From Porphyra umbilicalis (Eukaryota > Rhodophyta > Bangiophyceae > Bangiales > Bangiaceae), in contig KV918766.1 in assembly GCA_002049455.2 (NCBI GenBank), forward strand, positions 372,001 to 436,000: a stretch of DNA of 64,000 nucleotides. The letters are read 5' to 3'. The notes below the pieces were generated by a model, which worked only from the letters and a program-made list of their open reading frames with translations, was not told the origin of the DNA and searched no databases. Every line of letters begins with the position of its first letter. Within the stretch, counting starts at the first letter, position 1. Below, piece by piece: positions 2,057 through 62,120 of this stretch. A program made the translations under genes and the position numbers.

Positions 2057-4940
2057 TCATCCCCCACACGCGTCCAAGGTGGTGAGGATGCGCCCAAAGT
2101 CCGGGCGCTCCGCCGGCGCCTCGGCCCAACAGGCGCGGCACAGCGCGGCCACGCGGGGCGGGATGGGGGGGAGGAGGGGCAGGCGCTCCCCCTCCACCCC
2201 AACCGCGTACATGATTTGCACGGGCCGCATGCCCGCCCACGGCTCCCGCCGCGTGTGCAGCTCCCAGAGGAGGACGCCAAAGGAAAAGGCGTCGGCGGCG
2301 GGGGTGTACGGGTCCCCCTCCATCACCTCGGGGGCCATCGTGCAGGGCGTGCCAATGGGCGCGGCCGGCACGCCGCCGCCGCCGCCGCCGCCGCCGGCCC
2401 CGTCGCCGTCGTCGCCATCGCCGCCACCGCCCGGCCCGCGAAGCGTCGTCGCCAACCCAAAATCCGCAATAACCGTCTGCCCGCCCCGCACGAGCACGTT
2501 TTGGCTCTTGAGGTCCCCGTGCGTGAGCCCGCGGGTGTGGAGGTAGAGGAGCCCCCGCGCGATATCCCGCGCAAACGTCAGCGGCCGCACGTCGCCGTCG
2601 GCCGCGCGGCCGCTGCCGTCGAGCACCGACCCGTGGAGATAGGTGTGGAGGGAGCCACCGGGGAAGAGCTCCGACACGATGCACAGGGGGCGGTGGGGTC
2701 GGACGGCGCAGCCCATGTACAGGAGGAGGTTGGGGTGGCGCAGCTGCGAGAGCACCGCCACTTCGCCGAGGCACGCGGCGAGCGTCGGGAGGGACCACCC
2801 GTGGCTGCCCCCGTGGATGGTGCCGGCGTGGGGGGGAAGGGGGGGCGCGGACGCGACGGGGGAGCGGGGGAGGGCGTGCCCCTGCTCGGGCGAGCCATCG
2901 CCGGCAGCGCCGCCGCCGTCGTTGGTGTGGTCGTCCGCGCCGCTGTCATGGTCGCTACCGTCGCTGCTGCCGCCAGCGTCACTCTCTGGGCGCTCGTAAA
3001 ACACCTTTATGGCAACCGGCATCATGAGCCACCGGCCGCGCCACACCTGCGCGTGGGCGCCCTCCCCAATGGTGCTGTCAAAGGACAGCGCGTCGTGGTC
3101 GATGCGAAAGGGGCTGTTGCCGAGCGCCGCCGCGTCAGCGTCGCCGAGCGAGGCGCCCACCGACCCGTCGGGGAGGGGAGACACTGCCCGCCCACCCGAC
3201 GGGCGGGTCGTCCCCGGCGAGGTGCCACCGACTGTGTCGCCGCCGCCGCCATCGGCCCCGTCGGCGTCATTGCCGTCGTCGTCATCCTCCTCGTCATCGC
3301 TGTACACTTCCGCGGCGAGGGCGGCGGCGGCAGCGGCTGCGGCCGCCGCGGCCGCCGCCGTGGCCGCTGCTCGCGCGGCCGCCGTGGATCGTTGGCGCCC
3401 CGTCGACGGGCGCGCCGCAACCGCCGCGGGCGCCTCGGTCGTGGCTGACACCTGCGTGGGCACCGCCTCGGCCTTCCTCCCCCCCCCCCCTAGGGGCGGC
3501 CCGTCGGCCACCGCCACGCACCCGTCAAACGCCGCATTGACGTGGAAGCCGATGCGCGACAGCTCGAGAGAGAGGAGCTCCCGCTCCTTTTGCCCCCGCA
3601 GCGACGCAATCTCCTCCCCGCACGCCTCCGACAGGCCGCCAAGGCAGGAGCGGATGTCGTCCTGCGTGAGCGCCCACGTGGAAAATTCGTCAAACGAGAT
3701 GGCGCCGTCCCCGTCAACGTCCATGTCCGCAAACGCCGCCTCGGCTTCGACGGTCGCGGCGGCCAAGTCGGCCACGTGCTGCCGCTGAGCGGCTGCCTCC
3801 GAAGCGTCGTCAGCGGTGGGGTCAGCGGCGTCGTTGCCGTCGGCGGCGGCAGCGGCGGCGGCGGCGGCGGCGGCAGAGTCTTTGAAGGCAGGGGCGGCAG
3901 CGCGATTGACGAGGCGGCGCAGTTTGCGGAGCATGACAAAGACGTAGGGCAGCTCATCGAGGGAGAGGGTGCCAGACGCGTCAATGTCGTACGTCCCAAA
4001 CAGATAGAGCAGCCGATCCTGTGAGGGGGCGGAGATGGGGGCATAAAAGCACAGGCCAGAGCAAGCCGGTACCAGTGCACGTCGGGCCGGGCAACAGGTA
4101 GGTGGGAGGAAGCAAAAGCATGAACGAGGCAACGAGGCAAGGCTTGGAGCATTGTCAGTAGGACGAAACACCACGTCCGCGTACTGCACCGTCAGCAGGG
4201 TGCGCGGGGCACACAAACGGCGGCAGAGCTTCGAAGGGACTACCCCGCCAAAAGCGTGCACTGCCCACAGGGCAGCGCATGCCTGCCCCCGGCACCGCCG
4301 CCGTCGCCCACCCGCGGACGCCCGCAAGTAGGCACCACGCGCACGCTCCACACCCGGTGGACCCCCCCCCCCCCCCCCCCAAACGTACGCGCACGCTCCC
4401 CCGAGACAGCACGGCAAAGCCGAGGAGGAACTCACGGAGGCTCACCAACCCGCTCCCATTCGTGTCGATCATGCGGAAGAGGAAGTCCGCGTCGACCGCC
4501 GGCGGCAGAGCCATGCCCGCCACCAGCGACCGGAAGCCGTCCAAGGGCATCTCCCCGCCATACGGGTCCCCGCCGTCGCCCTCACCGCCACCGTCGCTAC
4601 CGCCGCCGGTGCCACCACCGGCGGCCGCCGCGGCGGCGGCCGCCCGCTGGTGCCGCACAAAAGCGCCGTGTAGGGCGGAAATTTCAAGCGCCGCCACCGC
4701 CTGCAGCGCGTCGCCGGCGGCGGCGCCGCCGCCGCCCGTCACGGCCGTCGCGGCGCCGTCGCGGGGGCGGGACGGCAGGGGGAGTGGCGTGCCGCCGTGG
4801 CGCCCGCCGCTGCCGGGTGCCGTGGCGCCCGCCCCTGGCGGCGGGGGGGGGGGGCCGTCGGCCGACGGTGGGGGCGGCGGTGGCGCCAACGACGGCGACG
4901 GCGGCGGCGGCGGCGGCGTGGCGGACCACGTCGCTCCCAT
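2057..4940 (-). CDS. EF-hand plus TKL-type protein kinase
   Basis: Predicted calcium-responsive protein kinase of about 837 residues in two exons. Exon 1 runs 4940-4389 and exon 2 runs 4018-2057; the intron 4388-4019 has donor GTACGT and acceptor CAG, phase 0. The start gives MGATWS, an N-myristoylation-type motif, so membrane attachment is likely. EF-hand loops are visible at about residues 156-168 (DTNGSGLVSLREF), 197-208 (DIDASGTLSLDE) and 282-293 (DVDGDGAISFDEF). The intron joins VLSRGSVR to DRLLYLFGTYDID, the usual spacing inside paired EF-hands. After an Ala/Gly and acidic linker, the kinase domain fills about residues 490-835: GEGAHAQV loop, VAIKVF lysine, LTHGDLKSQNVLV catalytic loop, DFG, and APE in CTMAPEV. 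The sequence style is TKL/Raf-like. The HRD arginine is replaced by glycine (HGD). EF-hands precede the kinase, the reverse of plant CDPKs. Frame is intact throughout. Confidence 0.88.
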
Positions 4941-14872: not shown

Positions 14873-17440
14873 ACAGTGCGTTCTCGTTATAAGAGATTCC
14901 AGGCACATGCGAGCAATACGCTGGCCTCTCGGGCGGTGACGCGCTCGGCGACGTATCGACACCGGGCACGCCAGGCACCTGCCGGGCCCTGTGACCCTAG
15001 CGGCAGCAAAATCCTTCTCAGCCACGTAACTCTAGTCGCTTTTAGCTTCATCACGACCCTTCCAACGCTGTCACGTCCTCAGATACCTGAGGACACGATT
15101 GCAGCCTGCCACCCCTCAAACGGAGAGCAAGTCCCTTGATCTAAGTATATGTGTTCCCTGGCATTTGAGAAATGGTGCTTTTCGGTATCTGAGAGCGTGT
15201 CAGCGTTCGAAGGGTCGCGATGACGCTAGAACCGAATGAAGTTAAGTGGCTGACAAGGACCGTCCTACACAGGGGTCACAGAGCCCGGACGGCGCCTGCT
15301 CCTCTGCCCCCCCCCACCGCCCCGAGTTGCGCCCGGTGACCGCGTGCAGCGACTTCCGGGTTTCGACCAGGGGTTGGTGAGGTTAAATCCTTCGAGGATA
15401 TATCCGCACAGGATACTCGTATCCATCTGGGATAAGGGCTGAGGCTGGAAGCTCGTAATGTACTCAACTCGGAGGGAAAAGAGTAGAGCCGTCCTTGTCG
15501 GAGCCCATGTGCCAGAATAGACAGTACTCAGATCGGACTTGGGACACTCCGCTTTATCCGGTAAGAGTATCGGTGAAAACGAGAGCGGCAGTGGCGCCTA
15601 GAGATTCATATGCAAGCGTGCAATCGAATCGTCAAACAAGCCACCTGTCCCATTCGTGCTAGCACAGATAGTGCAGTCTCCTGAACTTTGGCCGATCCCG
15701 ATGAGAAGAACTGTGCTGAACAGATGTACAGCAGTCATGCATCGGGCCGGAAGCGAGTTCTCGGCAAATCAGCAGTTGTGCGGACTGCAGGTTGCTCTTG
15801 CTCCCATGGTCCAGAATTGATAAGATTGCAAAACGTATCTCGACTGCTGATGCGACGCTCTGGAATGGGGCCAGCGAGAACTGGTTCCAGCCTCCAGCAC
15901 ACGCGTTTCTGACAGTCCTGCCAAGGGCTCCAGAGGGCGACAGAATCAGGGCAGTCGCCTCTCCGGCCGATCTTTCTTTGTTTCCCATTCCGCTCGCGAT
16001 GCCAGGAGAGTTGCGATCTTACGGTGCGTGTCCCAAAAAATGAGACATCGCGGATTTTCCTTTTTCTCTCGGCCCACTGGCCTTCTGCAGCGGTCCGATG
16101 ATGAAATTTGACCCACTCGGACCCTCTGCGTTGCCAGAACGGCCCCTGACACTGTAAGCAGAGGCGGCACATCCTCACGTGTCATGAGGGGAAGTATCAT
16201 TCATTGCAGCTTCGACAGGTGACGATCACGCCACCCAATCAAATGCACGGATACTAGGGAAGACATGTGCTGACAGTTTGTGCACGAAGAAATGGGCACC
16301 GCCTTAACAATAAAAACGAGAAAAAGACCGCCATGTAGCCCCCTGTGAAGAAAACTGGAATTGGGACACCTCTCATCGAAGCTCCAGTTAGCACATGAGC
16401 TTAGGCGTTGCAAACCTGTAACCCTAAGAACCTGAAAAAGACTGGCTCCAAGATCAGAGTTAGCTGAGAGGTCCACAGAACAGGGCCCACAGGCAGGTAC
16501 TAAGAAGTTGTCGGGAAAGAACCGTCTCGGGAGAGGCTCTTTCCATGGTGGCCAGTTGAAAATTTTTTCGTACCCCACCCCGCCTGCCACCGTGCAGTGA
16601 TGTGTCAGTCTTCCAGAAAACGCGCATGTATCATTTTCGGGACACGCACCATATCGAATGTCGCAATCGGAATTTTTCCTAGATAGATGCAAGTGTTCCA
16701 TCCGATGTGACTCGTGATCTCCTCCAGAAATTCTGATCTATTCCGTACTTGAGTTCTCGCTATTGTCATGAGCCCGGTATGCAATCATTATGTATCTCCA
16801 TGGATTGTATCGGAGTACTGACGAAATTTTCAGATTCCACCAATCCCTGGTTACGACGCGCCCACGATGACCAGCGGGTGATCGTGCCTGCGCGCGGGCT
16901 CTTGTTGCGACTGCTCGATGGCGGCTTCTGACGCCATCGAGTGGCACGGTTAGAGGCGGCCCGTCGGGCGGCGATCGGTCGCACCCGCCTCCCCGTGCGC
17001 CGCGTCGACCGCCCCGTCCGCCATGCGCAGTTGCGCTGCGCGGCGAAGTGACGGCCCCTCCCGTGGGCTCTGCGCGAAGCCGGAGGGCCGCCGCTGCTGC
17101 AGCGTCGGAAGCGGCACCCGTTTCCCCTCCTCACGCGCCCCCCGCTACGGCAACGTGGCCGTACGTGCCCCCGTGCGCGCTCGTGTCTACGGAGCCGGCC
17201 GGCTTACCCGGTGTCGATGCGTCGCCGAGCGCGCTACCGCCCTGAAGGCCAGGGTACTGCATGCATGTTCCTGGATTGCATCACGACACTTTGAGAGCAC
17301 CCAGTCCTGACGGTCAGGAAAATCATTTAGAAGAGAATATGGGTCGCGAGTTCTCGAATTCTCGAATGCAGTCAGTCAGGGCCAGATTTGTTCATATTGA
17401 ACCGAATCAGCTGTGTCTTACAACGAGAACGCTGGGGCTG
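14873..17440. mobile_element. Pogo/Tigger-like DNA transposon remnant with long subterminal inverted repeats
   Basis: The left end reads TA then CAGTGCGTTCTCGTTATAAG at 14874. The right end, read on the other strand from about 17434-17440, reads CAGCGTTCTCGTTGTAAGA. Inside, 14900-14990 and 17190-17285 are inverted copies of one GC-rich block containing CTCGGCGACG and TCGACACCGGG. The right arm also matches the 130-bp MITE at 37494-37623 over about 110 bases (CAGCTGATTC, AATATGAACA, CTCGCGAC, CATATTCTCTT). The left arm lacks that 110-140-bp part, so it carries a deletion. No transposase ORF is visible inside. A separate 630-bp MITE is nested at 16022-16651. I call it a non-autonomous, partly deleted pogo-group element. 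The exact right end is uncertain by a few bases. Confidence 0.6.
16022..16651. mobile_element. 630-bp TIR element, family copy C (MITE)
   Basis: Both ends carry the same inverted repeat: GGTGCGTGTCCCAAAAAATG at 16023 and its complement ending at 16650. The flanks read TA on both sides (16020-16021 and 16652-16653), a Tc1/mariner-type target duplication. It is a diverged copy of the elements at 35205-35829 and 36424-37010. A frame on the minus strand (16701-16201) stays open and parallels the frame in the other copies, with ACGPCS, SSCANWSFD and SSCTNCQ shared. It is nested inside the pogo-like element. Confidence 0.75.
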
Positions 17441-23132: not shown

Positions 23133-24045
23133 TGGCTACAGTCGGGGCGTCACCGACTCAGACGCAGACAACCCAGACAGCTTGGTGGTGACCAGGCGCG
23201 CGACCTTCTCGCTGCGCGCCATGCTGCACAGCAGGCCGCCAGCGAGAGGGTCGTGTTGGGGGCGCACGCGAGCGTGGCCGGGTAAAGGTCAGAGCCGCAG
23301 TGAAGAGTGGGGCACACGAGGGGATGCAAAAGTGGAAAGAGCGGACGTGGGTGCAAAACTATGGGGGCGTCGTTAGAAGCTCAGAGAGCACGCCTTTAGT
23401 AGTGCTTCTCCCCTCCTTCGGGCCGCCGCCATCCCCTTTTCCGCCTCCTCCTCACCCCCCTCCCGCCCTCCTCACCACCCATTGCCTTCCAAGCGATGCA
23501 CACTCACGCCACGAAGGCAAAAGTCGCGGCGCACCTCAAATCGAGTGTCAGAAGCCCAGTGGGCGCCGGCTGACGGGATGGTCGCGTGTGTTCCAACATG
23601 GTTAGCAAATTTCAGCAGCATCATGATCAAGGCTTGAGAATAAAGAATTGAACTGTGCACTCCGATATATTCCAAGTAATCTCACATGCATTCCGGATCG
23701 AGTTTGTGTCCATGTGAAGTATCACAATTTAGATAACTGTAGGCCGAATGAAATAATTCTGGGATGTTATTCGAAGCTCATGCTCAACAGAATTCGGATG
23801 AGTTCGGATTATGATATTCGATGACATCCGAACGTGAGCGATGGCCGCCAAATAAAAGATCGCCATGACAGGGGCGGTTCCAGCTGCGACACCTGACTCA
23901 TCAACTGGGGCGGCACGGGAGAAGTTTGCGGGGATTGCCCCATGCGCGCTGTGGGCCCATATTCCCGCCCGGTGACGACACCGTTCCGTGGCGCCTGTGG
24001 TGCCGCCGGAGGGGCCAACTATCCGAAGCGACACCGTGTGGCTGA
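23133..24045. other. Intergenic, nothing recognised
   Basis: About 0.9 kb upstream of the unknown minus-strand gene, turning AT-richer after about 23620. It should contain that gene's promoter. A small run of near-palindromic 'catccgaa/ttcggat' phrases occurs at 23690-23840. No ORF of note. Confidence 0.35.
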
Positions 24046-24866
24046 CCGTCACGAGCCAGTTCGTAACAAATGTGCCAGTTCGTGACAAATTGGGATTGTG
24101 TGGAAAATCAACAGTGTTTATTCAGAAGATCGGGTTCGGCAATGTCAGAATAGGGGGTGTAACGCCGATGTTCCAGCTTTTCTGAAAAAAACAAAAAGAG
24201 GCAGGCAAACATGATGCACACCATTGAACGCGCCAACTCGTCAGCTCGCCTTCGGTGTGAAGCGCGCCCAAAAGACAGCAAGTAGAACCGAGCAGCACGC
24301 CGAGAGAGAAAAAAGGGCGCACTCTCGGAAATCATTTTGATGCGTAAGTACATGGTCTGATGACACCGTGGGCGCACATTCTGGTGACTCTGCTGCATGT
24401 CCTCTTGCAGATGCCCGCGTCTTCTTCCCCCCGACCGTCCCCATCCGGTTTGGTACCTCTCGGAGCCATGTGCCCCACACTGAGCGCACTTGCCACCCTT
24501 TCACAGACTGAGAACACCACTGCCCCCACCCCCCCCCTCTGAGTGTCGCGCAATGGCGCCACGGCGGCCGCCTGCCACAGCGGCTGGTGATGCTGCCAGT
24601 CACCAGGCCAGGCTTACGGGCCTGCGTCTCGTGCGCAGCGGGGAGCTGACTACCAAGTCCTTTGGCGAGCGCTTTGGACTCTCCTATGCCCAGACGCGCC
24701 GCTTCGTTATTCGTGGAGGCGCCCTGCGCAGGCCCGGCCCGTCATCCTTCTTCTCCTCGGACGAGGAGGACCTCTTGGCCAAGTATCTTGTCGTCAATGC
24801 GACGATCGGTCGTGGGCTGTCCCAAGACGCGCTCTCTCGAGTGTGTGCCTCCTACCTCGCAGAGCT
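24046..24866 (+). repeat. Left arm of the long terminal inverted repeat
   Basis: This arm contains the presumed promoter/5' leader and about the first 105 codons of the transposase (24553-24866). Similarity to the right arm stops at ...GCAGAGCT (24866). Confidence 0.85.
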
Positions 24867-26016
24867 CTCGTCGGAGCGGCAGGCCGCTGCACGGGCCCAG
24901 TCGAACGGTTCGCTGTCGCCTGGGCGTAGCTGGGTGACTGGCTTTTGGAGCCGCCTCCACGGGCTGAGGCGGTACCCGGTCGGCACGCTGGAGGAGGGTC
25001 GCGCCCGCAACTCGAGACCCAATGTGGTGTCGCGCTGGTACGCCCTTCTGACGCTGCTGTACCGAGATCACGCCATCACCTCCGCCCGTCAAGTCTGGAA
25101 CATGGACGAGACTCACGTGCACGCCCGGACGTCTGCGGTGGAGGGTCGTGGCCGAATTATTGGCTGTGTCGGTCTACGAAAACCCGATGTTGTCCTGCCG
25201 TCGTTTGCTTCGGGAGCGGGCGCGTGCACGGCGGCGTTTTGCGTGTCGGCGGCGGGTGTTGTGGGGCCTCACTTTGTGGTTGTCGACGGGCAGGCGAGCG
25301 GTCACGCATTTGTGACCACGACTGACAGGGACGGCGGGAAGCAGGAAAAGGCTCTTGCCGCCTTCCTCAACGACGGCGCGATTGTGCGGCGCCGGTCTCC
25401 TCCAGGCTACAATAAAGAGGTTTTTGACGTTTGGGCTCAGCAGTTTGCCTCCTTTGCCCTCTCCTACTACCCAGGCGAGGCCAAGATTTTTTCGCTCGAC
25501 GGAGCCAATGTGCACCTGTCCTCCGCGGTTCTGCGGACCCTGCTGCGCGCCAACGTGCACGTGATCGCAGAGCCGTCCAAGATATCCCATATCTTGCAGG
25601 CGCTGGATGGTTCGAGCGCGTTTGGCCGATACCAGCCCAAGGTGCGGTCGCGTGTCTGTGAGGCCGCTTTCGAGTGCAGGGACGCCGGGCGGCAGTTAAA
25701 CACACCAGAACTAATGCGCTGTATCTCGGCGACGGCGACTGACGACCTGACGGAGGAGTCGCTGCGGACCGCCTTCCGACGCGTGGGGATGTGGCCCCTG
25801 GACCCTACGGTGGTGTCGGATGAGGAACTAAGCAAGGGCGCGGACGCTCCAGTCGCGGGTACCGACCTCAAGATGCTGACGCGGCGCCTGATTCCTGTCG
25901 TGCGAAACGACATGTCGTGTACACGGGTGGTCGCTGCGGCGACAGCTCTGCGAGGTAGGAGGCACACACTCGAGAGAGCGCGTCTTGGGACAGCCCACGA
26001 CCGATCGTCGCATTGA
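24553..26016 (+). CDS. Pogo/Tigger-like DDE transposase
   Basis: About 487 residues from the ATG at 24553 (CGCAATGG). The N-terminus carries a helix-turn-helix-like stretch (TTKSFGERFGLSYAQTRRFV) and a CENP-B-type segment (FFSSDEEDLLAKYLVVNATI, SWVTGFWSRLHGLRR). The DDE_1 catalytic core shows VWNMDETHVH (first Asp), FSLDGANVHL (second Asp) and ILQALDGSSAFGRYQPK (third Asp), with spacing typical of the family. The C-terminal YPVG and LRTAFRRVGMWPLDP parts match the family's tail (usual form: CW.K.GF.P). The frame is open throughout, so activity is plausible. The last about 25 codons run into the right inverted arm and are antisense to the gene's own 5' part; the original C-terminus was probably replaced when the arm formed. 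An upstream in-frame ATG at 24490 is less likely because it precedes the variable C tract. Confidence 0.85.
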   Translation: MAPRRPPATAAGDAASHQARLTGLRLVRSGELTTKSFGERFGLSYAQTRRFVIRGGALRRPGPSSFFSSDEEDLLAKYLVVNATIGRGLSQDALSRVCASYLAELSSERQAAARAQSNGSLSPGRSWVTGFWSRLHGLRRYPVGTLEEGRARNSRPNVVSRWYALLTLLYRDHAITSARQVWNMDETHVHARTSAVEGRGRIIGCVGLRKPDVVLPSFASGAGACTAAFCVSAAGVVGPHFVVVDGQASGHAFVTTTDRDGGKQEKALAAFLNDGAIVRRRSPPGYNKEVFDVWAQQFASFALSYYPGEAKIFSLDGANVHLSSAVLRTLLRANVHVIAEPSKISHILQALDGSSAFGRYQPKVRSRVCEAAFECRDAGRQLNTPELMRCISATATDDLTEESLRTAFRRVGMWPLDPTVVSDEELSKGADAPVAGTDLKMLTRRLIPVVRNDMSCTRVVAAATALRGRRHTLERARLGTAHDRSSH

Positions 26017-26763
26017 CGACAAGATACTTGGCCAAGAGGTCCTCCTCGTCCGAGGAGAAGAAGGATGACGGGCCGGGCCTGCGCAGGGCGCCTCCACGAA
26101 TAACGAAGCGGCGCGTCTGGGCATAGGAGAGTCCAAAGCGCTCGCCAAAGGACTTGGTAGTCAGCTCCCCGCTGCGCACGAGACGCAGGCCCGTAAGCCT
26201 GGCCTGGTGACTGGCAGCATCACCAGCCGCTGTGGCAGGCGGCCGCCGTGGCGCCATTGCGCGACACTCAGAGGGGGGGGTGGGGGCAGTGGTGTTCTCA
26301 GTCTGTGAAAGGGTGGCAAGTGCGCTCAGTGTGGGGCACATGGCTCCGAGAGGTACCAAACCGGATGGGGACGGTCGGGGGGAAGAAGACGCGGGCATCT
26401 GCAAGAGGACATGCAGCAGAGTCACCAGAATGTGCGCCCACGGTGTCATCAGACCATGTACTTACGCATCAAAATGATTTCCGAGAGTGCGCCCTTTTTT
26501 CTCTCTCGGCGTGCTGCTCGGTTCTACTTGCTGTCTTTTGGGCGCGCTTCACACCGAAGGCGAGCTGACGAGTTGGCGCGTTCAATGGTGTGCATCATGT
26601 TTGCCTGCCTCTTTTTGTTTTTTTCAGAAAAGCTGGAACATCGGCGTTACACCCCCTATTCTGACATTGCCGAACCCGATCTTCTGAATAAACACTGTTG
26701 ATTTTCCACACAATCCCAATTTGTCACGAACTGGCACATTTGTCACGAACTGGCACATGACGG
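25944..26763 (-). repeat. Right arm of the long terminal inverted repeat
   Basis: Inverted copy of 24046-24866. It includes an antisense copy of the transposase N-terminal coding part, and the transposase stop codon (26014-26016) lies inside it. Read on the minus strand from 26181 it again begins MAPRRPPATAAGDAASHQAR. Confidence 0.85.
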
Positions 26764-26986
26764 ATACAGATGTTCTTACACGGTCGTCATTTGGAAGCGC
26801 CGTCGCGCCCCAGGGTCCGATTTTCCAACAGCGTCACACCCACGGTGCGTCCGAAAGCCGTGTGGACGCGTGCCCGTCCGTGCACACAGGTGCCCGTGCG
26901 AACACTTGCCCATTTGGCCATGTACCCACAGCACTCGCCGGCACACAGCGCACGACCAGCACGGCCCACGCCCCGTACGGTGCATG

Positions 26987-27112
26987 CGCCACACCGCCGG
27001 CGCTTCACACCACCGGCGCTTCACACCGCCGGCGCCCCACACCGCCGGCGCCCCACACCGCCGGCGCCCCACACCGCCGGCGCGCCACACCGCCGGCACG
27101 CCACACCGCCCA
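26987..27112. repeat. 16-bp GC-rich minisatellite, about 8 units
   Basis: Tandem units of the type CGCCCCACACCGCCGG repeated about eight times. The first two units carry TT in place of CC, and the last units are degenerate (cgcgccac, cacgccac). A longer frame across it (26721-27281) is only a translation of the repeat. Confidence 0.85.
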
Positions 27113-34749: not shown

Positions 34750-35204
34750 CAGTTCTCGCGAAAGGCACTTGCACAAGCTTCACTTTCAGGCCCGCCTGCC
34801 ACTGAGGGGGGGCTTCTATTGATACTTTATTGAGCCCACATCCGGTTGCCCCACCTTTCTGCTGCACGGAGTAGCTGGTGCCGCCTCTTTACGATTTGTT
34901 TTCACTATTTTCAAACGGGACTTGCCAGCTTCCTGCCTTTTCGATGACGGAATCCGTCTAAACTCAAGAATGCTCTCACATTTGCGTTGACGCACCTCTC
35001 TCCCCCCGCGACCGTGCTTGATGTCCTCAACCGATCTGTCGGGATCCCTTGCGCTGCAATGAAGACAATCGCGACGTCGCCAGTAATTGCTAAAGCCACA
35101 CCTCGCAAGCACCATTTGGCCGCGACTTCTACCCCTGGACCAGCTCCTCCTCTCAGCCTTCCCTAAAGATAAGGATAGCAGAGCTTTGCGGTCAGCGATC
35201 TTAT

Positions 35205-35829
35205 GGTGCGTGTCCCAAAAATGAGACATAGCGGTTTTTTCTTTATTTCTCGGCCCACTGGCCTTCTGCAACGGTCCGATAATGTAATGTGACCCGCTCG
35301 GTCCCACTGTGATTCCAGAACAGCCCCTGACAGTGTTAGCAGAGGCGGCATATCCTGACGTGTCATGGGGGACAGTGTCATATATTGCAACTTCGACAGG
35401 TGACGATCACGCGGCCCAATCAAATGCACTGATACTAGAGCAGGCACTTGCTGACAATTTGTGCACGAAGAAAAGGGCACCACCTTACCAATAAAATCGT
35501 GAAAAAGACCCCCATGAAGCCCCCTGTGAGAAAAACACGATTTGGGACACCCGTCATCGAAGCTCCAGTTAGCACATGAGCTTTGGCGTTGCAAACCTTT
35601 AACCCCAAGAACCTGAAAAAGACTGGCTCCAAGATCGGGGCTATCTGAGAGGTCCAGAGAACAGGGCCCACAGGCGAGTATTACGGAGTTGTCAGCCAAG
35701 AACGCGTCGGGAGAGGCTCTTTCCACGGAGGCCAGTCGAGAATTTTTTCGTACCCCACGCCGCCTGCCCCCGAGCAGTGACGTGTCAGTCCTTCAGAAAA
35801 CGCGCATGTCTCATTTTTGGGACACGCAC
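35205..35829. mobile_element. 625-bp TIR element, family copy A (MITE)
   Basis: Both ends carry the inverted repeat GGTGCGTGTCCCAAAAATG (about 26 matching bases in all). A minus-strand frame stays open for about 188 codons (35726-35163), nearly identical to that of copy B. It contains ACGPCS, SSCANWSFDDGCP, SSCTNC and LVSVHLIGPRDRHLS. I do not recognise this frame as a protein family. Terminal repeats and size fit a Tc1/mariner-type MITE. Confidence 0.75.
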
Positions 35830-36423
35830 GAGATAGTACTTCTTTTGCCGAGGTCGTTGCAAAATACGCGGAATAGAATGCACAGGATCAGGCTGGATGT
35901 GGTGGATGAAAGTCCGCATGACAGTGTCACGTCAGACCTGGCGTGTGGCCAATGGCGTCTCGCTGCTCGGGTGGACGTTCTCATCTCAGACGCGCGATGA
36001 GTACTGTCCCTGACGCAATTCTGGATCAGCGACGCATAGCTGGATCACCGGAATCGTCGATTCCAGCTCATTTGCCCGTCTTTTTTCTGCTTTTTCTCTC
36101 TCCTTCGACGCTGCTACAAGAATACAACAGCGGAGGGGGAGAAAACATACCAACAGAAAGCCCAGAGAAAGGCGCATTTTTTGCTGTCAAGGGTCCTCGT
36201 ATGCTCGAAAATAAACGGAGACGGTCGGGGTGGCGAGGGTTGAGGCCGTCCTGTTGGCGCCAAGTGCCCGTAAAATTGCAGATCCGGTCGATCGACCGCG
36301 GTCGGGACCACAAACCGTTGATCCGGCTCGGTGATCGGGGGCCCTCCTCCCGGCTGGCACTCATTCACGAGCGCGCGCTTTCTCGCTGTCCCGTCCACTC
36401 GTTGCTACAAGTGCCCTCCGTCA
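35830..36423. other. Spacer between inverted MITE copies
   Basis: About 590 bases separating two inverted copies of the same MITE. No conserved ORF. It includes an AT-rich tract around 36080-36215. Confidence 0.4.
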
Positions 36424-37010
36424 ACTGACACATCACTGCTCGGGGGCAGGCGGCGTGGGGTACGAAAAAATTCTCGACTGGCCTCCGTGGAAAGAGCCTC
36501 TCCCGACGCGTTCTTGGCTGACAACTCCGTAATACTCGCCTGTGGGCCCTGTTCTCTGGACCTCTCAGATAGCCCCGATCTTGGAGCCAGTCTTTTTCAG
36601 GTTCTTGGGGTTAAAGGTTTGCAACGCCAAAGCTCATGTGCTAACTGGAGCTTCGATGACGGGTGTCCCAAATCGTGTTTTTCTCACAGGGGGCTTCATG
36701 GGGGTCTTTTTCACGATTTTATTGGTAAGGTGGTGCCCTTTTCTTCGTGCACAAATTGTCGGCAAGTGCCTGCTCTAGTATCAGTGCATTTGATTGGGCC
36801 GCGTGATCGTCACCTGTCGAGGTTGCAATATATGACACTGTCCCCCATGACACGTCAGGATGTGCCGCCTCTGCTAACACTGTCAGGGGCTGTTCTGGAA
36901 TCACAGTGGGACCGAGTGGGTCACATTACATTATCGGACCGTTCCAGAAGGCCAGTGGGCAGAGAAAAAAAGGAAAAAACCGCTATGTCTCATTTTTGGG
37001 ACACGCACCA
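36424..37010. mobile_element. TIR element, family copy B, one end truncated
   Basis: Inverted relative to copy A and nearly identical to it. Its right end is intact (complement of GGTGCGTGTCCC ending at 37010, followed by TA). On the left, similarity begins at ACTGACAC (36424), so about 40-50 bases including the terminal repeat are missing. The open frame here (36331-37035, plus) matches copy A's residue for residue except at a handful of sites. Confidence 0.75.
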
Positions 37011-37493
37011 TACTGTTTCGACATTAGGAATGTAACCCCCGCATCCTCATCAACATAAGACAGATGTTTCTAACTAGAATCCGAACGCATCAGCCGATGA
37101 AAGACGGTATGAAAAAAAATGAAGACAACAGTGACAAACTCCGTAAGAGCGGTTCACAAATAAGAACGCTATTTATCCATGTTTTCCACAACCCAGCTTA
37201 GTACCAGTTGCCAAAAATTGGAACGTGATCGGCCAGTAGGAAGGGCATGAGAGGAAAAGTTGCTGGCAGACTTACCGGCAGAGATTTACTGTTAAAGTGT
37301 GCAAAAGCTTTTATCCATTTGAATGCTCCAGTGAGGTGCCCAGAGCCCCTATTTCGAATTGTAAAATAATTCGCCATATAGTGAAGTGGCCCCCATCCTT
37401 CTCTCTCAGTCGCATTCAAATGCTGAATAACGCTACGTGCATGAAACATGGGCCTCCTGGCGCGGTCCGAAAGAACTGGAATTCTCCCCTATA
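37011..37493. other. Intergenic, nothing recognised
   Basis: About 480 bases of AT-rich DNA between the truncated MITE and a small pogo-like MITE. No ORF of note. Confidence 0.35.
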
Positions 37494-53255: not shown

Positions 53256-54135
53256 TCACTCGGCCGCATCCTGCGCGCTCTTGGCCGCAATCTGGCGGAT
53301 CTTGTCCGTGTAGGCGGCCTTGGAGCGCGTAAACAGCGCGTACGCGTCGCCGTTTGCTGGGTCCGACGCGTTGGGGCTGTCGAGCAGCGACTGCACGCCG
53401 AGGAGGATCTGCTTGACGGTGATGGAGGGGCGCCAGCCCTTGTCCGCGTCGAGGATGGAGAGGCACACGGTGCCCGACGGGTAGACGTTGGGGTGGAAGA
53501 GGGGCGGGTCAAAGCGGCACCGGGGGGGGCGCGACGGGTAGTCTTCCGAAAACTCCATCACGAGCTTGTACACGCCGCCGGCCCAGGGGGTCTGCGCGCG
53601 CGCACACAACCGGTGGGGGGCGGGAGGGGGGGGGGGGGTGGGAGGGGGGGGATGCCAAATGCCATGCCACACGGAGCGCAAAGCAGGCAACAAGAGCGCA
53701 CGTCACGACCGCCGCACGCGCAGCCCAACGCAAGGGGGCAACACGCGACCACGAGCAGGGCCAAAAAAAAGAAAAAAAAGGTCAACCACGTCAGCAACAA
53801 CGCAGACGCCGGGGTCCACACCCGCACCACACACCCCAGCGTACCAGACGCCGTCGCACGCCGCATCGCCACCCGCCCCACCCGCGCACACGCAACGCAC
53901 ACCCCCCCCTGGGGGCGCGGGCGGGGACCCCCCCCCGCACGGGCGACGACGCGCCCACGCCCCCCCCCACCGCGCGCCGACCACGTACGTTTGGCACGCC
54001 CGGGATGCCACACTGCCACACGAGCAGGTTGGTCTGCCCCCCCGTGTTGGCCGGCCGCGCGTGGAAGCCGTAGGGGTGCTCCTTGCGCCAATTGCGGCGC
54101 TCCTCCTGCAGCCGCCCACGCGCAATGCCGCTCAT
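53256..54135 (-). CDS. UBC9: SUMO-conjugating E2 enzyme UBC9
   Basis: E2 that takes SUMO from the E1 and transfers it to target lysines, mainly in the nucleus. Exon 1 (54135-53989, 49 codons) encodes [20 protein letters not shown] then [14 protein letters not shown]. The intron 53988-53592 (397 nt) has donor GTACGT, acceptor GCAG, phase 0. Exon 2 (53591-53256) encodes [20 protein letters not shown]. It continues with the E2 signature [20 protein letters not shown] (HPN motif, catalytic Cys at about residue 92), then [20 protein letters not shown]. Total about 160 residues versus 158 in human UBE2I. The basic N-terminal helix that binds SUMO/E1 is present, which separates UBC9 from ubiquitin E2s. 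The frame is intact despite C-rich introns. Confidence 0.96.
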
Positions 54136-54930
54136 GGTGCCAGAAGTGCCGGGGGGGGGGAAGGCGTCAAACAACAAAAAAAAAAAGGAGGGGGGCGCCG
54201 ACGGACGAGGGAGGCGGGCAGAGGAACCGGCAACGCCGGTAGCAGGAACAAGAACGGGCGTCTGGTGCGGGAAAACGGGGCAGACGCGTCGACGGGGAAA
54301 GGCGGCACAGCACCACCGGCGGGGCGGGCGGGAGCGCTCGACGCGGCGGGCGCGGGGGGGGGGGCGGATTATGCATGCGCGTACGCGTCGCGGCCGCGGC
54401 CGCGGCCGGCCCCGCGCGCCCCGTGCGTTTTTGAAAAAAGAAGTCGTCGAGGTTGGAGCCAGCCACGTGTCGCCCCGCCGTTGGGTGCATCCGACGGTCA
54501 TCGTTGTTGTCGGCGATTTTCGAGACGGGACGCCACGCCGACCTTCCCGCCAAAACTCACACTCTGGCGACGGGCGTACCGGCCAATTCCACACGCGCGG
54601 CCTACTTGTCCGTGATTACCAAGGGGGGCGCACGGGCGGCGCCCCGTTGGACGGCACCGCGCGCGCGCGCCGCCGGTGTCCCGCCCACCCCCCGCGCGGG
54701 CGCCCGTCCCGGCCGCCGCCCCTCAGGCGGCACGAGCTGCGCGGCTTGCCCCCCCCTCGAGGGGCCTCCTCCCCTGCGCCCCCGCGCGGTCGTCACGGCG
54801 CGCAGTGGCGCCAGCGCCACTGCCGCGCCGTCGCGGTGGGTGGCGGCCCCCCCCCCCGCCCCCCGTCCTTCACCGCCGCCCCGCCCCCCGCCGCCGCTGC
54901 TGCTACCGGCGGCGCGCGCGGGGCGGCGCC
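54136..54930. other. Divergent region between UBC9 and the SUZ12-like gene
   Basis: About 800 bases. An A-run (54174-54186) and mixed sequence near 54420-54600 are followed by rising GC. It should hold the promoters of both genes. Open frames here are compositional. Confidence 0.4.
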
Positions 54931-55099
54931 ATGACCCCCCCCATCCCCCCCCCTCCCCCCCCCCCCCTCCCCTTTGAGGCGCGCGCGTCGCCGCTCTACC
55001 GGCGGGGCACCCACCGGGCCACCCCACCGGCGGCGACCCCCCCCCCCGGCGTGCCGCCGTTGATCCTCGCCCTCACCGTCACGCTCCTCGGCTGGCCGC

Positions 55100-55159
<60 letters not shown>

Positions 55160-55463
55160 ATGGCCACGGCAGCGGCCATGGCAACGGCACCTATGGCGGC
55201 GGCGGCGGTGGCAGTCGCGACGGCAGCCGCTCGAGCCACCACCGGGCGGGGACCCCCCCGTCGACGGGGGCGACCGCGCGACCGGCCGCGCCGCCTACGT
55301 GGCGCTCGTCGCCGAGACGCCCGCGGCGGGGGGCCCCGTCACGACGCTCCTCAGCGTCGCCGTTGCGGGCGTCAAGGACACGGTCACGCTGGACGTGCGG
55401 CCGGGGGTGGTGGCGCTCCTCTCCCACGCGGCGGCGCTTGCGGCGCGGCCGCCGGCGGCGGCG

Positions 55464-55496
<33 letters not shown>

Positions 55497-55616
55497 GCAG
55501 CCCCGTCGGTGCCGCCCCCGGCGGCGGGCGGCAGCCGCGCCAAGCGGCAGGCAACGGCGGCGGCGGCAGCGTCTTCAACGGCAGCAGCAGCCGCAGCGGC
55601 GGCAGCGGCGACCGCC

Positions 55617-55669
<53 letters not shown>

Positions 55670-58404
55670 GGCGGGCCCCCGCCTCCTCGTCCGCGTCGCC
55701 CCCCGGGTTGTCGACGGCGCGGCCGCGTCCGCCGCCGCCCCACCGCCGACCACGTCCTCTACACCGGCGGCCGGTGGGTCGGCGTGCCGCCCGGCGGCGG
55801 GGCGCCCGTGTCGACCGGCGCCCGCGGCGGCGGCTGGCGGCTGCACGTGGCGTGGCTCGGCGGCCGCCCGCCGCTCGACGGCCTCGCCACGTACGCGCTG
55901 TTTTTGGGGCGCCCGCCGGTGGGGGGGGGGGGGGGGGCGCCGCCGCCGCCGCTGCCGCGGCGGCCGCGGCGGCCGCCGAGGCGGCCGCCGCCGCCGCCGC
56001 CACGGTCGTGGCGCCACGCGGCGGCGGCGGCGGCGGCGGCGGCGGGGGCCGCCCCCCAAACGGCACGGCCCGCGCCGTCAAGGGGCGCGCGGCGGCGCCG
56101 TCAGCGTCCCCCCCCCCGCGCCCGTCAAAGCCCCCCCAGTGTCGGCCGACGCGGCCGCCGCCGCGGCGGCGGCGGTGGCCGTCACGGCCGCCACCGCCGC
56201 GTCGGCGGCGGCGGCGGCCGCCGCGGCGGCGCGCCCGCCCCCCCCCCGCTCGACATTACCTACACGGTCGCCGCGCCGCGCGGCGGCGGCGGCGGCAGCG
56301 GCGGCGGGGCGGCCGCTCCCCCCCCCCCCCACACCCACACCCGCACCGACGCGCGGTGTCCGCTGTGCCACGTCGACGGGCGCACCGTTGCGGGGCTGCT
56401 GCGGCACGCGGACGCGGAGCACGTGGGCGTCGCGCTCACCTTTTTCCAAGCCGTCACCGCCGCGGGCGTGAGTGGGGGGGGGGCGGGGGGGGTGCCGCCC
56501 CGGCCGCCGCCCCCGCCCTGGGGGGGGGGGGCGTCGACGCGGGGGGGGGGCGGGGGGGGGGGCGCCCCCCTCCGCCCCCGTGGGCGTGGGGGGGGACCTC
56601 CTCCGCGCCGACCGCTACGAGGCGCGCATCGAGTGGCTGCCGCGCCCGCCGGCGGTGGCAGAGACGATTCCGGTGGGGGGGGAGGTGCTGTGCGTCGGCC
56701 GCCGCTTTCCGGCCTACGCGCGGTGGGCGGCAGGTACGTTGGGCGCGCGGGGGGGGGGGGGGGGGGGGGGGTCGTGGGGGAGATGGCGGGCGCGCCCGCA
56801 GAGGGGGTCGAGCCGTCGAGGCGGCACGCGCGGGTGGGCCCGCGGTGCGGGTGCGCCGACCGCGCGCCGGTCGGGCGACCGCCCCGGCCGTGGCGGCAGC
56901 CGACCAACTAACCGTGACGCGTCGCCCTCGGCGGTTGTGTGTGTGTGTGTGTCGCCTCGGTCGCGGTGGGCTTGCTCCCCCCCCCCCCTCCTCCCGACCA
57001 CCTAGCCGCGGCGGCGGCCACGCCCACGGCCCGCCGCGGCGCCGCCCGGCGGCGCCCCCCGCCCCTGCCCCCGGTCGGCGGCGGCGTGGCGACGCGCAGC
57101 GGCGGCGCGTCGGCGGCGGGCCCGCCGCTGCCGGCCGGCAGTCGCGCGCGGCGCGGCAGCATTGCCGACCTCCACGCCGAGGTCGCCTCCCTGTACGTGT
57201 GCTGGCGGGGGTGCGTGGGTGTGTGTGGCGCGCGGGCGTGGGGGGGGGGGGTGCCGCCCGGCGGCGCGCGCGAGTGCAGGGCAGCAACTAACCGCCCCGT
57301 GGCCGGTCGCGCGTCGGGCGCCCTTGCGCTTGTGTGTGTGCTGTCCAACGTGCTGCCGGCGTGCTGTGTTTGTCTCTGGGTGCTCGACGCCCCACAGGCG
57401 GCTCGCCACCGCGTCCGCGTCGGGTCGACCGCCGCCCGCCCCCGCTGCCGACCCCGCCCTCCCCCCCGCACGGGCCGGCGCGCGACGCGCCCACCCGCGC
57501 ACGCGCCGTCCATCCCGCTCCCCCCACCATCCGACTGGGGGGGCAGCCCCCCCCCCCCCTCCCCCCCCCCCCCTCCTCCCCCCCCCCCCCCCCACCCCCT
57601 CGCCGCCGGCGCGTCGCGGCGGCGCCCCCCCCTGGCCCCCCCGCCCCCCACCACCCCCCCCCCCCCCCCCCCCCCCCGCCGCCACCGCCTTCCGCCGCGG
57701 CGCCTACTTTCACACCAACACGCTCGAGCGGCTGGCCTTCCCCCCCCCCCCCACCCCCGATGTCGGCCCCGACTCGGAGGACGAGTTGGAGGAGGCGTGG
57801 ATGACCTCCATGGACGCGGCGCGCCTCCGCGCGCTCCCCGTGCCGCCCCGCGACGTGCTGTTTATGGGGCTCTGGACGGCGTACGTGGACGCGGCGCCGC
57901 CGTGGGCGGACCGCTCCACGGCGGCGCTCGTGGCGGGCTTTGTCGCGGCCCGCCGGGGGGCGCTCGCCGCCGCGGGGCTGACCGGCCAAGCGGCCGCGCA
58001 CGTGGGCCTCCTGTGGTCGTATGGGCTCCTCGACGCGGCGGCGGCCGCCGAGGTTGTCGGCGCGCTGTTTGAGGGGGGGGGGGAGGGGGGGGGGGGGAGG
58101 AGGGGGGGGGGGTGGGGCGTGGGGGGTGGCCACCACGCCCGCCGCTGCCGCCACTGTCTCGGCCGCCGCCGCCGCCACCGCCCCGCCGCCGGCACCGGCG
58201 GCGGCGGTCGTGCTGGGCGGCCGCGCCCGCGCGGCGATTGATCCCGCCGAGGCGGTTGCGGCGGCGGCGGCGGCGGCGGCCGAGGCGGCGGCGGATTCGG
58301 CGGCCGAGGCGGCGCGCGGCGCGCGGCGCGCGCGGCGGGAGGGCGGCCGCCGCGACGCCGCCGCCGCCCGCCGCACGTCGGTGCGCAAGCGCGCGCGGCG
58401 GTGA
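54931..58404 (+). CDS. SUZ12/EMF2-like Polycomb (PRC2) subunit
   Basis: Candidate PRC2 core subunit for H3K27 methylation. From the ATG at 54931 the protein is heavily padded with Ala, Gly and Pro runs. A folded part shows ALVAETPAAGGPVTTLLSVA and VKDTVTLDVRPGVVALL (55300-55430), DHVLYTGGRWVGVPPG and WRLHVAWLGGRPPLDGLATY (55745-55900). A single C2H2 finger follows, CPLCHVDGRTVAGLLRHADA then EH (about 56360-56425), as in SUZ12/EMF2/VRN2. After further exons (for example LLRADRYEARIEWLPRPPAV, 56590-56730, ending at a GTACGT donor; and GSIADLHAEVASLYVCW, 57150-57205) comes the VEFS-box: GAYFHTNTLERL, PDSEDELEEAWMTSMD, FMGLWTAYVDAAPPWADR and GLLWSYGLLD (57690-58045). The C-terminus is Ala-rich with a basic, NLS-like end (RTSVRKRARR, stop 58402). 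The frame changes at many C/G tracts, and exon limits are uncertain. The order finger then VEFS with its 'YFH...DSEDE' core is the main evidence. Confidence 0.72.
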
Positions 58405-59828
58405 GGGGGGCGGGGGGGGGGGGTAGGACGTGCCGGTGGGGTGCCTCGGTGGGTGGCCGGGGGGGGTAGACCCCTGGGGACCCGTTGTCGGCGGGGGGGG
58501 GGGGGCGGCCGTGGGATAAAGCGCGCCCGACGCGGCGCCGGGTGCTTTGACAAACCGGGTCCACGGGGCGCGGGCGCCGCGCGCGGGCGCGCCCCGCGGC
58601 GGCACGTGCCATTCCTCCTCTGGCACGCCCAACGCGGCGTGCGGCAGTCGCGGCGTGCGGGCACGCTCCCCCCGCCCTCGTCGCGGGGAGGGGCCACGTC
58701 CCTGCCCCTTTCCCCCCCCGTCCCGCCCGCCCGCGCCGGCGCGGCGGCGGCGGCGGGTGGCGCGCCCGCCCCCCCGCGGTGGGGCGCCGCGCGCCGCGCG
58801 GCGGTGGGGCGCCGCGGTCCGCGGCGGCCGCCCCAAAGACGGCGGCGGTGGCGACCGCGGCGGGGGAGACGCGCCCCGCCCGCCGCCCCGTCTGAGGGTG
58901 CGGGCCGGGGAGGGGGGGCGCCGACGTGCCGCCCGGCCCGACCGCCGTCGCGGGCGGTCGGGGTGGACGGCGACGGCGGGGGCGCGGCGGTGCGCGGCGC
59001 GCGCGCGGGACGACGACGGCGGCGGCGGGGCGGCGGTGGTGGGGGTCGACAGTGGCGCCGTCGGGGTCACACCCGGCCGCCGCCCCAGACCGCCGCGCCC
59101 GCCGCCGACGCGAGCGTGTCCCCGCGTCTGCCGGGACCGCCCGGCGTCGCACCCGCCGCGCAGACCGACGCGGCGGGGCGGCCGACGGGCGGGCGACGCG
59201 GCGCTCTGGGGGCGGCGTCGGCTCCACACGGGCGGCGTCAGCGGCGACCGCGGGGCGGCCGTTGGACGTGCGCGTGGCGCCCGCGTGGCGCCCGCGCGCG
59301 CGGGGGTGCCCGCCGCTTCCGTTTTTTTTTTTTTTGTCTTGTGCAACGTCCCCCGCGGTCGACCGCCAACCGGTCGGCGTGGACGCGGCGGACGGGCCCC
59401 ACGTGGCCGCGACGCCGCGGCCGCGGCGGCGACGCGCGCGGCGTGCACGGCGGTGCGCGCGCGTGTGGGCGTGGGCGGCGTGGGGAGGGTTTGGGCAGCG
59501 CGCGCACCACGTCGCGCCCGGCGCCGTCCGTGCCAACCGCCGACCCGCGCTGCGGCTGCCGGCGGCGGTCGCCCCCGACGTGGGCAGGCGTGTGGCGGTT
59601 GGACGTTGCGGCAACGCAGGCTGCCGCGACTCGCAGTCCGCAGCGCTAAGGGCGGGGGATGCGTGGGTGGGGGCCGGCGCGCCATGATGGGGGTGCTCCC
59701 GACGCGCGCGTCTGCCTCCGTGCCCCATCCCCGTGTCGACAGCCGGCGACGGGGGGCGGGCGCGCGTCGATGGCCTCCCCGCCGCGCCGGCTACAGCGGC
59801 CCCGCGACCGACTCGCGGTGGCCACGAC
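58405..59828. other. Very GC-rich region, no supported gene
   Basis: About 1.4 kb open in several frames on both strands. I could not find a conserved domain. One plus-strand frame has a possible Cys-pair (VGRCGNAGCRD, about 59605-59640) just before the hAT-type insertion, so an interrupted gene is conceivable. A T11-12 tract lies at 59320-59335. Confidence 0.35.
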
Positions 59829-62120
59829 CAGGGGTGTCCAATCGGTTATCTGAAAGCGCGTTCGCGAAAACACCCTGGACTTGCAAAACGATAGAACTGT
59901 TTTCACACGACGAAAGATACATAGGCAAGTCGAGCACCGCATCCCGGGTGAGCGTCACCTGCACGACCGGCGCCGCTTGGGAGCGCACGTACGAGCCGGA
60001 GATCAGAAAAAAGGAGACGAGGAAGGCGGCCATGGCGGCGGTGGTGGCAGTCGCCGACGTGACCACCGCTTGCTGGCGTAGGGGGCGCTCCGCCCACCGC
60101 CGCCGCGGCGTCCACCGCGGCCAGCACGAGCGGCAGCTGCTGCCGTCGCGGGGGTACCCGCCCACTGGTGGGTAGCGGCCGCCCGCACGCTCCTCGACGA
60201 CCGGCGCTTTGTCTTCGTCCGAGGGGGGCTAGGTGATCGCCGCGAGGGGCTCCTGCCGCACCCACCGGAGGGTCAGCAGCGGCCGCCACCGCCGTGGCGG
60301 GCGGCGGCTGCCACCGAGGCACGGCCGCCACCATCCGAGCAACCACCGGCCGACGCTGGCTGGGCATTCGTCGCTTGCCGCAGCGCAGACTCGAGGCCGA
60401 GCTGCGCGATGCGCACGTGCGCGGCGGCGACGCGGTGGATGGGGAGGGGGGGGTATGTGGGGCCACAAAGGGGGAAGGGGGGGGAAGAAGCCGTCGATGG
60501 CACGGGGGGGCGGGCGGCGGGGTGGAGCGAGAAAATAGCAGGGGCGCCACGCCGCCGCCGCCGCCGCCGCCGGCACCGCCGCGGCCGCGGGCGCCACTCG
60601 CTGCCGTGTGCGGGCGCGCGTCGTGCGCACGGTCGTCCACTGCTCACCGCCGCGTCGGCGGCAGGCGCGGCGGCAACACCGCCAGCGGCGGTGGCCGCCG
60701 CCCCCACCCGCCGCGCGCGGGTGTTGCGGGAAGGGACGCGACCACGCAGGCCGCAGCGCATTCAGCGCCGACACGACCCCCTGTTTGAAAAATCAAAACC
60801 GACGTCTCCCACAGGGCCCGCAGAGCCCGATTCTGGCCAACTACCGCGGAATTGTGACATCATGGCCGTTCGTGGCCGCGTCCACCTGCCCCCACGACCC
60901 CGTAAACGCCGCACCTGCCCTCACGCACCTTTTTAACCACGATTCTGCTTCCGCGGACCATACGGGCGATGAAGACGTCGCCACCTCTAGCAACTTCACA
61001 GAAAGATGCGGGCAGCCCCGGCGCATGTTCCCATAGTCAAGAAAGCGCCGGGGGACGTCCTCCAACGGCGTAGGGAGCCAAACGGACCGCCAAAAACGTT
61101 TTTTAAGTACTCCCGCAACGTGTACTAGAAAAAAGGACTTTTTTTTCGACGTGTGGGTGTGAAAAAGCACCCTAGACTAAAGTCCAGGGAATTGTAATCG
61201 GTTGAAATTGATTAAACCGGGACGAAAACAGAGTCTGATCACGAACTAGTTCAGAGGCAAATAAAACGGGTCATCCGATTTGATCGAGCTCCCGGAAATT
61301 TCCCAGCTTATGCGCGTCTTTGGAAAGGTGAGAATACACCTTCAGTATTAAAAAATCCTTGACCATGTTCATCCAAAGATCCACCGAGGAATGCTCCTGG
61401 GTCAACAGTGCTGAGGTCGATGGCATGTGAAGGGCCCTGGACTAATGCAGCAACAACCGAGCTCGTACAGAGCCCGGCCCGTTACTCTCACGTCCTCCGT
61501 CTACCTCTACGGGTGAAGTCAGAGCAACCAGATAAGGAGAGCATCAGAAAGGGACTTCCGGAGTGGAGAAAACGGTCGCTCCATTTGGCAAGAGAAGAAG
61601 TAGAATGTGGCTAATGCTTCGGCTTCGCGATGGTCCTTACGAAGATAGCCCTCTCTCACGAAGACACCGAGCAGTACGCAGTTCTCCATCATTCACAGAA
61701 GGCCTTGGTAGGCCAGATGGATACTGTACCAAGCAGTACCTAAACTTGTTCTGTACCTGCGAGCAGGGACTTAATCGACGAGTACCTGCCTCCAGGGCCT
61801 GGGCAATACCTACTGGAGATGTCTCGATGGCTCATGAGACATTGTGGCACTGGAGTCTTCCCTCTGCTTCTGCAGCGCCAGCTCGCCCTCTCTGTGGCGC
61901 AGTCCGCAAAGTGCTATTGCGAAGTGCGCGAAGAGCGCTAGGTGAGATGTGTGTTCATTGAATACTGCGCAAATTTCGAATTGATCTATTATACAAAGCA
62001 GTCATTGAGAACTTGTCGAGTTTCTTTTACCGGTAATTGTGAGTCGGTTTAGAATCGAAAATGGGCTATAACGAGAACTAGTTAACCGGTTTGGCATCGC
62101 AACCCTATTGGACACCCCTA
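59829..62120. mobile_element. hAT-type DNA element with GC-rich cargo
   Basis: The ends are CAGGGGTGTCCAAT (59829) and, inverted, TAGGGGTGTCCAAT (62120). They are flanked by an 8-bp target duplication, GCCACGAC on the left (59821-59828) and GCCACGCC on the right (62121-62128), 7 of 8 identical. Terminal sequence and duplication length are characteristic of hAT elements. No transposase motif is visible in the 2.3 kb, so it is non-autonomous. The interior is mosaic: about 59990-60780 is as GC-rich as host genes, the rest is AT-rich. In the GC-rich part a minus-strand frame reads ATTAAMAAFLVSFFLISGSY then VRSQAAPVVQVTLTRDAVLD, LPMYLSSCENSSIVLQVQGV, a membrane-helix-like segment that runs out through the left end. 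This may be captured host sequence. Confidence 0.75.

Follow-up and report, generated by a model that had tools for sequence, protein, structure and literature searches.

A transposon copy of the red alga Porphyra umbilicalis has had its right end replaced by an inverted copy of its left end, so that it now has nearly identical arms of 828 bp at its two ends. The copy is found in a stretch of 64,000 nucleotides from contig KV918766.1 (positions 372,001 to 436,000), analysed here as a whole and hereafter called the window. We consider it probable (about 0.7) that the copy is a defunct, rearranged relic of a DNA transposon of the pogo/Tc1-mariner type and, with the same confidence, that the best explanation of its arms would include an origin in DNA repair followed by homogenisation through gene conversion. 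The following features were recognised in the window:

24045 to 26764, + strand: rearranged TA-inserting DDD transposon (flanking TA not counted), with both ends of the left type
24043 to 24066, + strand: damaged left tip, with TG instead of TA and with changes at 24045, 24052, 24054 and 24065 relative to C203, C53 and the right arm
24045 to 24873, + strand: left arm, consisting of the left terminus, the 5' non-coding part and the first ~105 codons
24553 to 26016, + strand: C-terminally cut transposase frame, with residues 1-460 homologous to relatives and the last 27 derived from the antisense arm
25105 to 25107, + strand: first catalytic-type Asp, D185 in NMDET (ten-protein alignment)
25498 to 25500, + strand: second catalytic-type Asp, D316 in LDGA (ten-protein alignment)
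25606 to 25608, + strand: third catalytic-type Asp, D352 in LQALD (ten-protein alignment)
25927 to 25943, + strand: inner junction between the transposase gene and the right arm, with ~1 bp shared or ~4 bp of filler
25937 to 26764, - strand: right arm, which repeats the left arm in inverted orientation where the true right end should be
26745 to 26766, - strand: right end carrying a left-type tip without damage, with TA at 26765-26766

The arms were recovered by a repeat finder and by local alignment where the original prediction had placed them. They copy the element's own 5' end, and, as had been proposed, the 5' region and the first ~105 codons recur in the right arm in antisense orientation. 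In the local alignment of the left arm with the reverse-complemented right arm, 826 of 832 aligned columns are identical, leaving 6 mismatches, and the sole gap is a single base in a C tract. At this gap, the repeat finder divides the arm pair into stretches of 491 and 355 nt, both at 99%, a likeness that cannot be due to chance. The core of the arms, from 24066 to 24866, contains no substitution at all, and ~1.06 kb of single-copy transposase sequence is enclosed between the arms.

To place the window copy among its relatives, we searched 83.8 Mb of the genome in 665 contigs, where the window lies on contig C6. The DNA search yielded at least 81 matches (40 of 67 candidates scored), and the best other copies among those scored were C203 (93% over the first 1887 bases), C92 (86%, part of the element) and C53 (84%). 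At least 15 places match the left end alone, over its first ~734 bases, and there are also several shorter fragments. The protein search yielded at least 91 matches (88 of 190 candidates scored), and in many of them the frame is open over ~640 codons; a scan of viral contigs found no relatives. Terminal repeats could be read in 25 copies, a count that includes only copies with a repeat pair found within 1.5 kb and excludes a second pair, of another family, at L024. These repeats are inverted, 26-39 bp long and based on TATCCGT, with single-base variants in a few copies, and TA flanks both sides in 23 of the 25 copies, whereas the window copy has TA on the right and TG on the left. The unrearranged plan is seen in C53 (49644-53012; 3369 bp including both TA), which combines a left end TATCCGTCATGTGCCAG with a distinct right end TATCCGTCGTGCCCCAG.

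No element-borne long arms were present in the other 47 loci (several of them overlapping views of one place, with ~1.5 kb of flank) of a 48-locus inverted-repeat scan, from which three loci of the window's own place had been excluded and in which the window was represented by L022, with 833-nt arms. The 379-bp inverted pair detected at L019 falls outside the element. Moreover, a genome search with the left arm gave at least 43 matches (40 of 41 candidates scored), and among those listed the window pair is the only outward-facing inverted pair within 3 kb; the left ends of the pair on C46, 4.1 kb apart, face one another. The original prediction had allowed that long arms might be the normal state of the whole family, which would have spoken against it. 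We rejected this on the 25 copies with 26-39-bp ends and the 47 other loci without long arms, although a second long-armed copy could exist beyond the candidates scored. Because the copy is clearly homologous to its relatives (C203 is 93% alike over 1887 bases), we read the 828-bp arms, found instead of the short repeats of the relatives, as a probable later rearrangement of the window copy. Foldback (FB) elements have long terminal repeats built from short tandem repeats. We rejected an assignment to this class: the repeat finder detected no direct-repeat family inside the arms at a minimum of 20 nt, and the sole repeat of that sort at the element tip is a two-fold motif of ~20 bp.

The same searches yielded several side observations. 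Seven loci (L013, L014, L016-L019 and L021) hold non-autonomous elements of ~1.44 kb in which ~734 bases from the start of the left end are joined to a right end of their own. Contigs C290 and C278 carry the same matches as each other, as do C266 and C644; C290 and C278 also have the same flanks and seem to be two haplotypes, so that the assembly appears to hold both haplotypes in places. At L019 (contig C325), positions 2257-3677 form a 1,421-bp sequence that is 98% its own reverse complement, with no spacer, and represents a genuine palindrome or, alternatively, a fold-back made in assembly. At L024 (contig C193, 265-3881), a transposase copy of the window element's family is apparently nested in an element with TATGGTGCGTGTCCC ends.

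The transposase frame is open over 508 codons, or 487 counted from the ATG at 24553. In the alignment of the window protein with nine relatives, D316 and D352, with 35 residues between them, are invariant in all 10 proteins and D185 is found in 9 of 10. An open transposase with a DDD core, as originally predicted, is present, in a protein that is itself cut at the C terminus. Identity of the window protein to the nine relatives (L038 included) is 42-66%, and it diverges from them after approximately residue 460, its terminal 27 residues being a reading of the antisense arm; at the DNA level, homology to the relatives' gene ends at ~25932. Read by eye, C203 extends ~140 residues past this point, and the lost C-terminal part includes a NGTLSTAGRGTVL-like stretch that is kept with small changes in the nine aligned relatives. 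The window copy lacks ~1.5 kb of 3' sequence, as measured in C53, including the right terminus and these ~140 residues.

Neither a Pfam search with the window protein (E up to 1), which included helix-turn-helix families, nor a PDB search returned a match, and the family profile gave just four weak, unrelated matches in PDB. Relatives were more informative: among six full-length proteins, L038 matched PF03184 (DDE_1) with 23.4 bits, above the 22-bit cut-off, L027 and L044 matched it below the cut-off, and the other 3 had no match. HTH_23 was matched below the cut-off in L038, L044 and L050, and HTH_7, likewise below the cut-off, in L044 and L050 (six relatives scanned). A DDE_1-type catalytic domain with DDD spacing can be assigned to the element through the relatives only. 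Judging from its sequence and its relatives, the element is most probably a TA-inserting DDD transposon of the pogo/Tc1-mariner type, which agrees with its original description as pogo-like. Its description as intact does not stand: the right arm has taken the place of the original 3' end, the transposase has been shortened, and there is damage at the left tip.

The two tips are in different states. On the left, the window reads TG|ACCGTCACGAGCC, within the tip sequence TGACCGTCACGAGCC, whereas relatives read TA|TCCGTCATGTGCC. For the proposed empty-site comparison we used an element-free paralogous region on C143, 78% alike on the left and 78-82% on the right: the paralogue has TA at the spot of the window's right tip and is roughly 290 bp longer than the window on the left. 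A simple reading is that the window lost its left flank together with the TA, although the extra 290 bp may be an insertion on C143, the paralogue being only ~78-82% alike. We also considered a short palindrome-templated mutation as the source of the left-tip change; a flank deletion would be simpler. At the inner junction, approximately one shared base or four filler bases can be read, as in end joining. To the right of the element, the window contains an array of 16-bp GC-rich repeats (CACACCGCCGGCGCCC type; 26986-27110), with matches also on C143. Further away, at 54001-60000, G+C content reaches 80-82% per 2-kb step, compared with 57-63% at 16-34 kb around the transposon.

The origin of the right arm can be traced through letters private to the window copy. 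Comparison with C203 and C53 revealed 29 such letters among 765 comparable sites in 24071-24866, and all are common to both arms. Thus, the right arm was derived from the window copy itself or from a near twin, and either the copying or a homogenisation of the core would be recent. The substitutions that do separate the arms are at 24052, 24054, 24065, 24867, 24871 and 24874; position 24874 coincides with the junction, a further difference at 24879 lies beyond it, and the alignment has gaps at the left tip (TG-A vs TA-T). Inside the arms, substitutions are confined to 21 bp at the outer tip and 8 bp at the inner junction. Under random placement, a gap this large has a probability of 0.0012 if the differences arose in two independent events and 8e-5 if they arose in three, and with four it was seen in 0 of 200,000 trials. 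This clustering points to later homogenisation of the core rather than simple youth; the original prediction had offered both, the arms being young or kept alike by gene conversion, and the clustered ends favour the latter. Against this reading, the end differences are few and were chosen post hoc. At the first five (24052-24871), furthermore, the right arm has the C203/C53 letter, also at the counterparts of 24867 and 24871, and the left arm has a new one. New letters in the left arm at five of six sites are not particularly predicted by a model in which both arms age, and damage to the left tip and the junction during formation would be an alternative source that also fits.

We propose that the rearrangement began with faulty repair of a double-strand break, most simply after excision. 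One broken end would have annealed to the wrong, left terminal repeat, ~830 bp would have been copied inward from the left end, and the copied end would have been sealed by end joining. Gene conversion within the element could later have homogenised the arms, leaving only the outermost and innermost bases different. Deleted transposons, Ds and others, were reportedly attributed by Rubin and Levy in 1997 to interrupted repair after excision. Derivatives of abortive gap repair are mostly internal deletions that retain both true ends, whereas the window copy has lost one end and carries the other a second time, inverted, in its place.

The same product could, however, have come from two insertions close together in opposite orientation and a subsequent deletion. 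A second copy would have inserted alongside the first, the inner parts would have been deleted, and gene conversion would have followed, which also accounts for arms with differing ends and an identical core. We consider this unlikely, although it deserves weight, because the 29 private letters in both arms demand a near twin or full conversion and no near twin was found among the DNA matches scored, the best other copy being 93% alike. A pair of this general kind does occur in the window: at 35202-37012, two TA-flanked elements of ~630 bp with TATGGTGCGTGTCCC ends, the second lacking its last ~45 bp, are inverted relative to each other and 98% alike over 589 bp, with 18 letters in common that are absent from at least 5 of 6 other copies. 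Eight of the 9 differences between them, one an indel, are in the outer 251 bp. We rejected this pair as independent proof of gene conversion, because its private letters are in common along the whole length (judged against the six other copies); it supports local copying or conversion but does not distinguish between them. An older single copy of the 630-bp element, with short terminal repeats, lies at 16020-16653 in the window and is 86% alike over 468 nt, and the genome contains at least 44 near-full-length matches, including the window's two (40 of 417 candidates scored).

A different question, compatible with repair and gene conversion as the source of the arms, is whether the copy acts as a natural silencing locus, its hairpin or antisense RNA giving rise to small RNAs that silence relatives in trans. 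The 5' non-coding stretch, the expected site of the transposase promoter, is present in both arms, so that double-stranded RNA could form from transcripts started on either side; a sense transcript could terminate late in the right arm, at the one AATAAA on its + strand (26687). Judged by anatomy, the nearest known system is Mu killer of maize, a MuDR derivative with an internal deletion, in which both ends come from the mudrA side and part of the gene is present as an inverted copy (PMC3440606). In the window copy, too, the transposase-side end is present twice and part of the transposase gene is repeated in inverted orientation. Unlike Mu killer, it belongs to another superfamily and host, retains ~1.06 kb of single-copy gene and has no intact close target in sight. 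The same source reports short antisense transcripts in silencing plants, instead of the long hairpin proposed earlier (PMC3440606).

The genome contains two Argonaute loci, and an 845-residue Argonaute stretch has linker, PAZ, Mid and Piwi domains above the cut-offs and an N domain just below; a 647-residue frame contains two RNase III stretches. Because the genome has both an Argonaute and a double RNase III gene, small RNAs from a hairpin or antisense transcription, as raised in the original prediction, are possible. An RNA-dependent RNA polymerase had no match in the genome search, which is uninformative since the control genomes likewise had none. Exact 21-mers of the arms occur in 13 other places among the sequences compared (C203, 192 of 813; C3, 56; C92, 47; others fewer). 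Those of the middle part occur in C203 (236 of 1033), in L033 (12 of 1033) and in L042, L044, L045, L046 and L047 (2-3 each), the six last-named relatives belonging to other subfamilies. However, the closest copies are already broken: C203 has one stop and no right end within 1.5 kb, C53 has one stop, C92 has several, and C13 is in two pieces. A present-day target for silencing is therefore not evident among these four, and no 21-mer is common to the arms and the compared open-frame relatives of other subfamilies. The sequence comparisons do not indicate a present-day silencing role, and a past one is possible; overall, we regard the copy as a silencing locus with considerable doubt. Slightly more doubtful is the fuller version modelled on Mu killer, in which facing promoters would yield hairpin and convergent double-stranded RNA for silencing by Argonaute and RNase III, perhaps of a subfamily already extinguished, while gene conversion would keep the hairpin perfect.

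An assembly or consensus artefact, with the assembler as the source of the inversion or of the identical arm cores, is very unlikely. The sole difference in the core, one base in a C tract, would suit it, but the flanks differ on the two sides, the window contains no N, both arm ends have distinct bases and the right tip is followed by TA where the element-free paralogue also has TA.

Finally, the open frame might suggest an active element. On the window branch, the frame has accumulated 15 synonymous and 36 non-synonymous changes (relative to C203 and C53), where random changes are expected to be synonymous in 28.6% of cases, and the probability of no stop among 51 changes is 0.24 (transitions weighted 2 to 1 in both calculations). 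These changes look neutral, and the open frame therefore needs no selection; we rejected the equation of an open frame with activity on the same ratio. That the cut transposase has been retained as a repressor or host gene is scarcely credible, its open frame and three catalytic-type Asp residues notwithstanding, given the neutral 15:36 ratio, the 0.24 chance of an open frame without selection and the 27 antisense-derived residues at its tail.

Enlargement of terminal repeats is already known elsewhere, and the window copy is a further case, in another clade and with a cut transposase. In Drosophila willistoni, some copies of Galileo have terminal repeats enlarged by part of the transposase frame (PMC4168063). 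Galileo differs in belonging to the P superfamily, in its target duplication of 7-8 bp and in having taken the final piece of the frame, whereas the window copy took the 5' part (PMC4168063). Closer in superfamily, the LIR variant of the Tc1-mariner element Bari1 in Drosophila rhopaloa has two identical 255-bp repeats where the subfamily norm is 28 bp (PMC4877112). It has a full-length transposase and 7 copies, in contrast to the 828-bp repeats, single copy found and cut transposase described here (PMC4877112). No pogo-clade case with such arms was noticed in a literature search conducted mostly at the level of titles.

The window copy offers a clean example of a short-repeat, TA-inserting transposon that acquired 828-bp arms when one end was overwritten with a copy of the other, in a host genome outside the plants and flies of the compared systems. 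Its identical core, with divergent last bases at both ends, offers a straightforward way to test inverted arms for homogenisation. Should small RNAs prove to arise from it, the copy would represent a trigger of silencing built like Mu killer, in a lineage far from maize.
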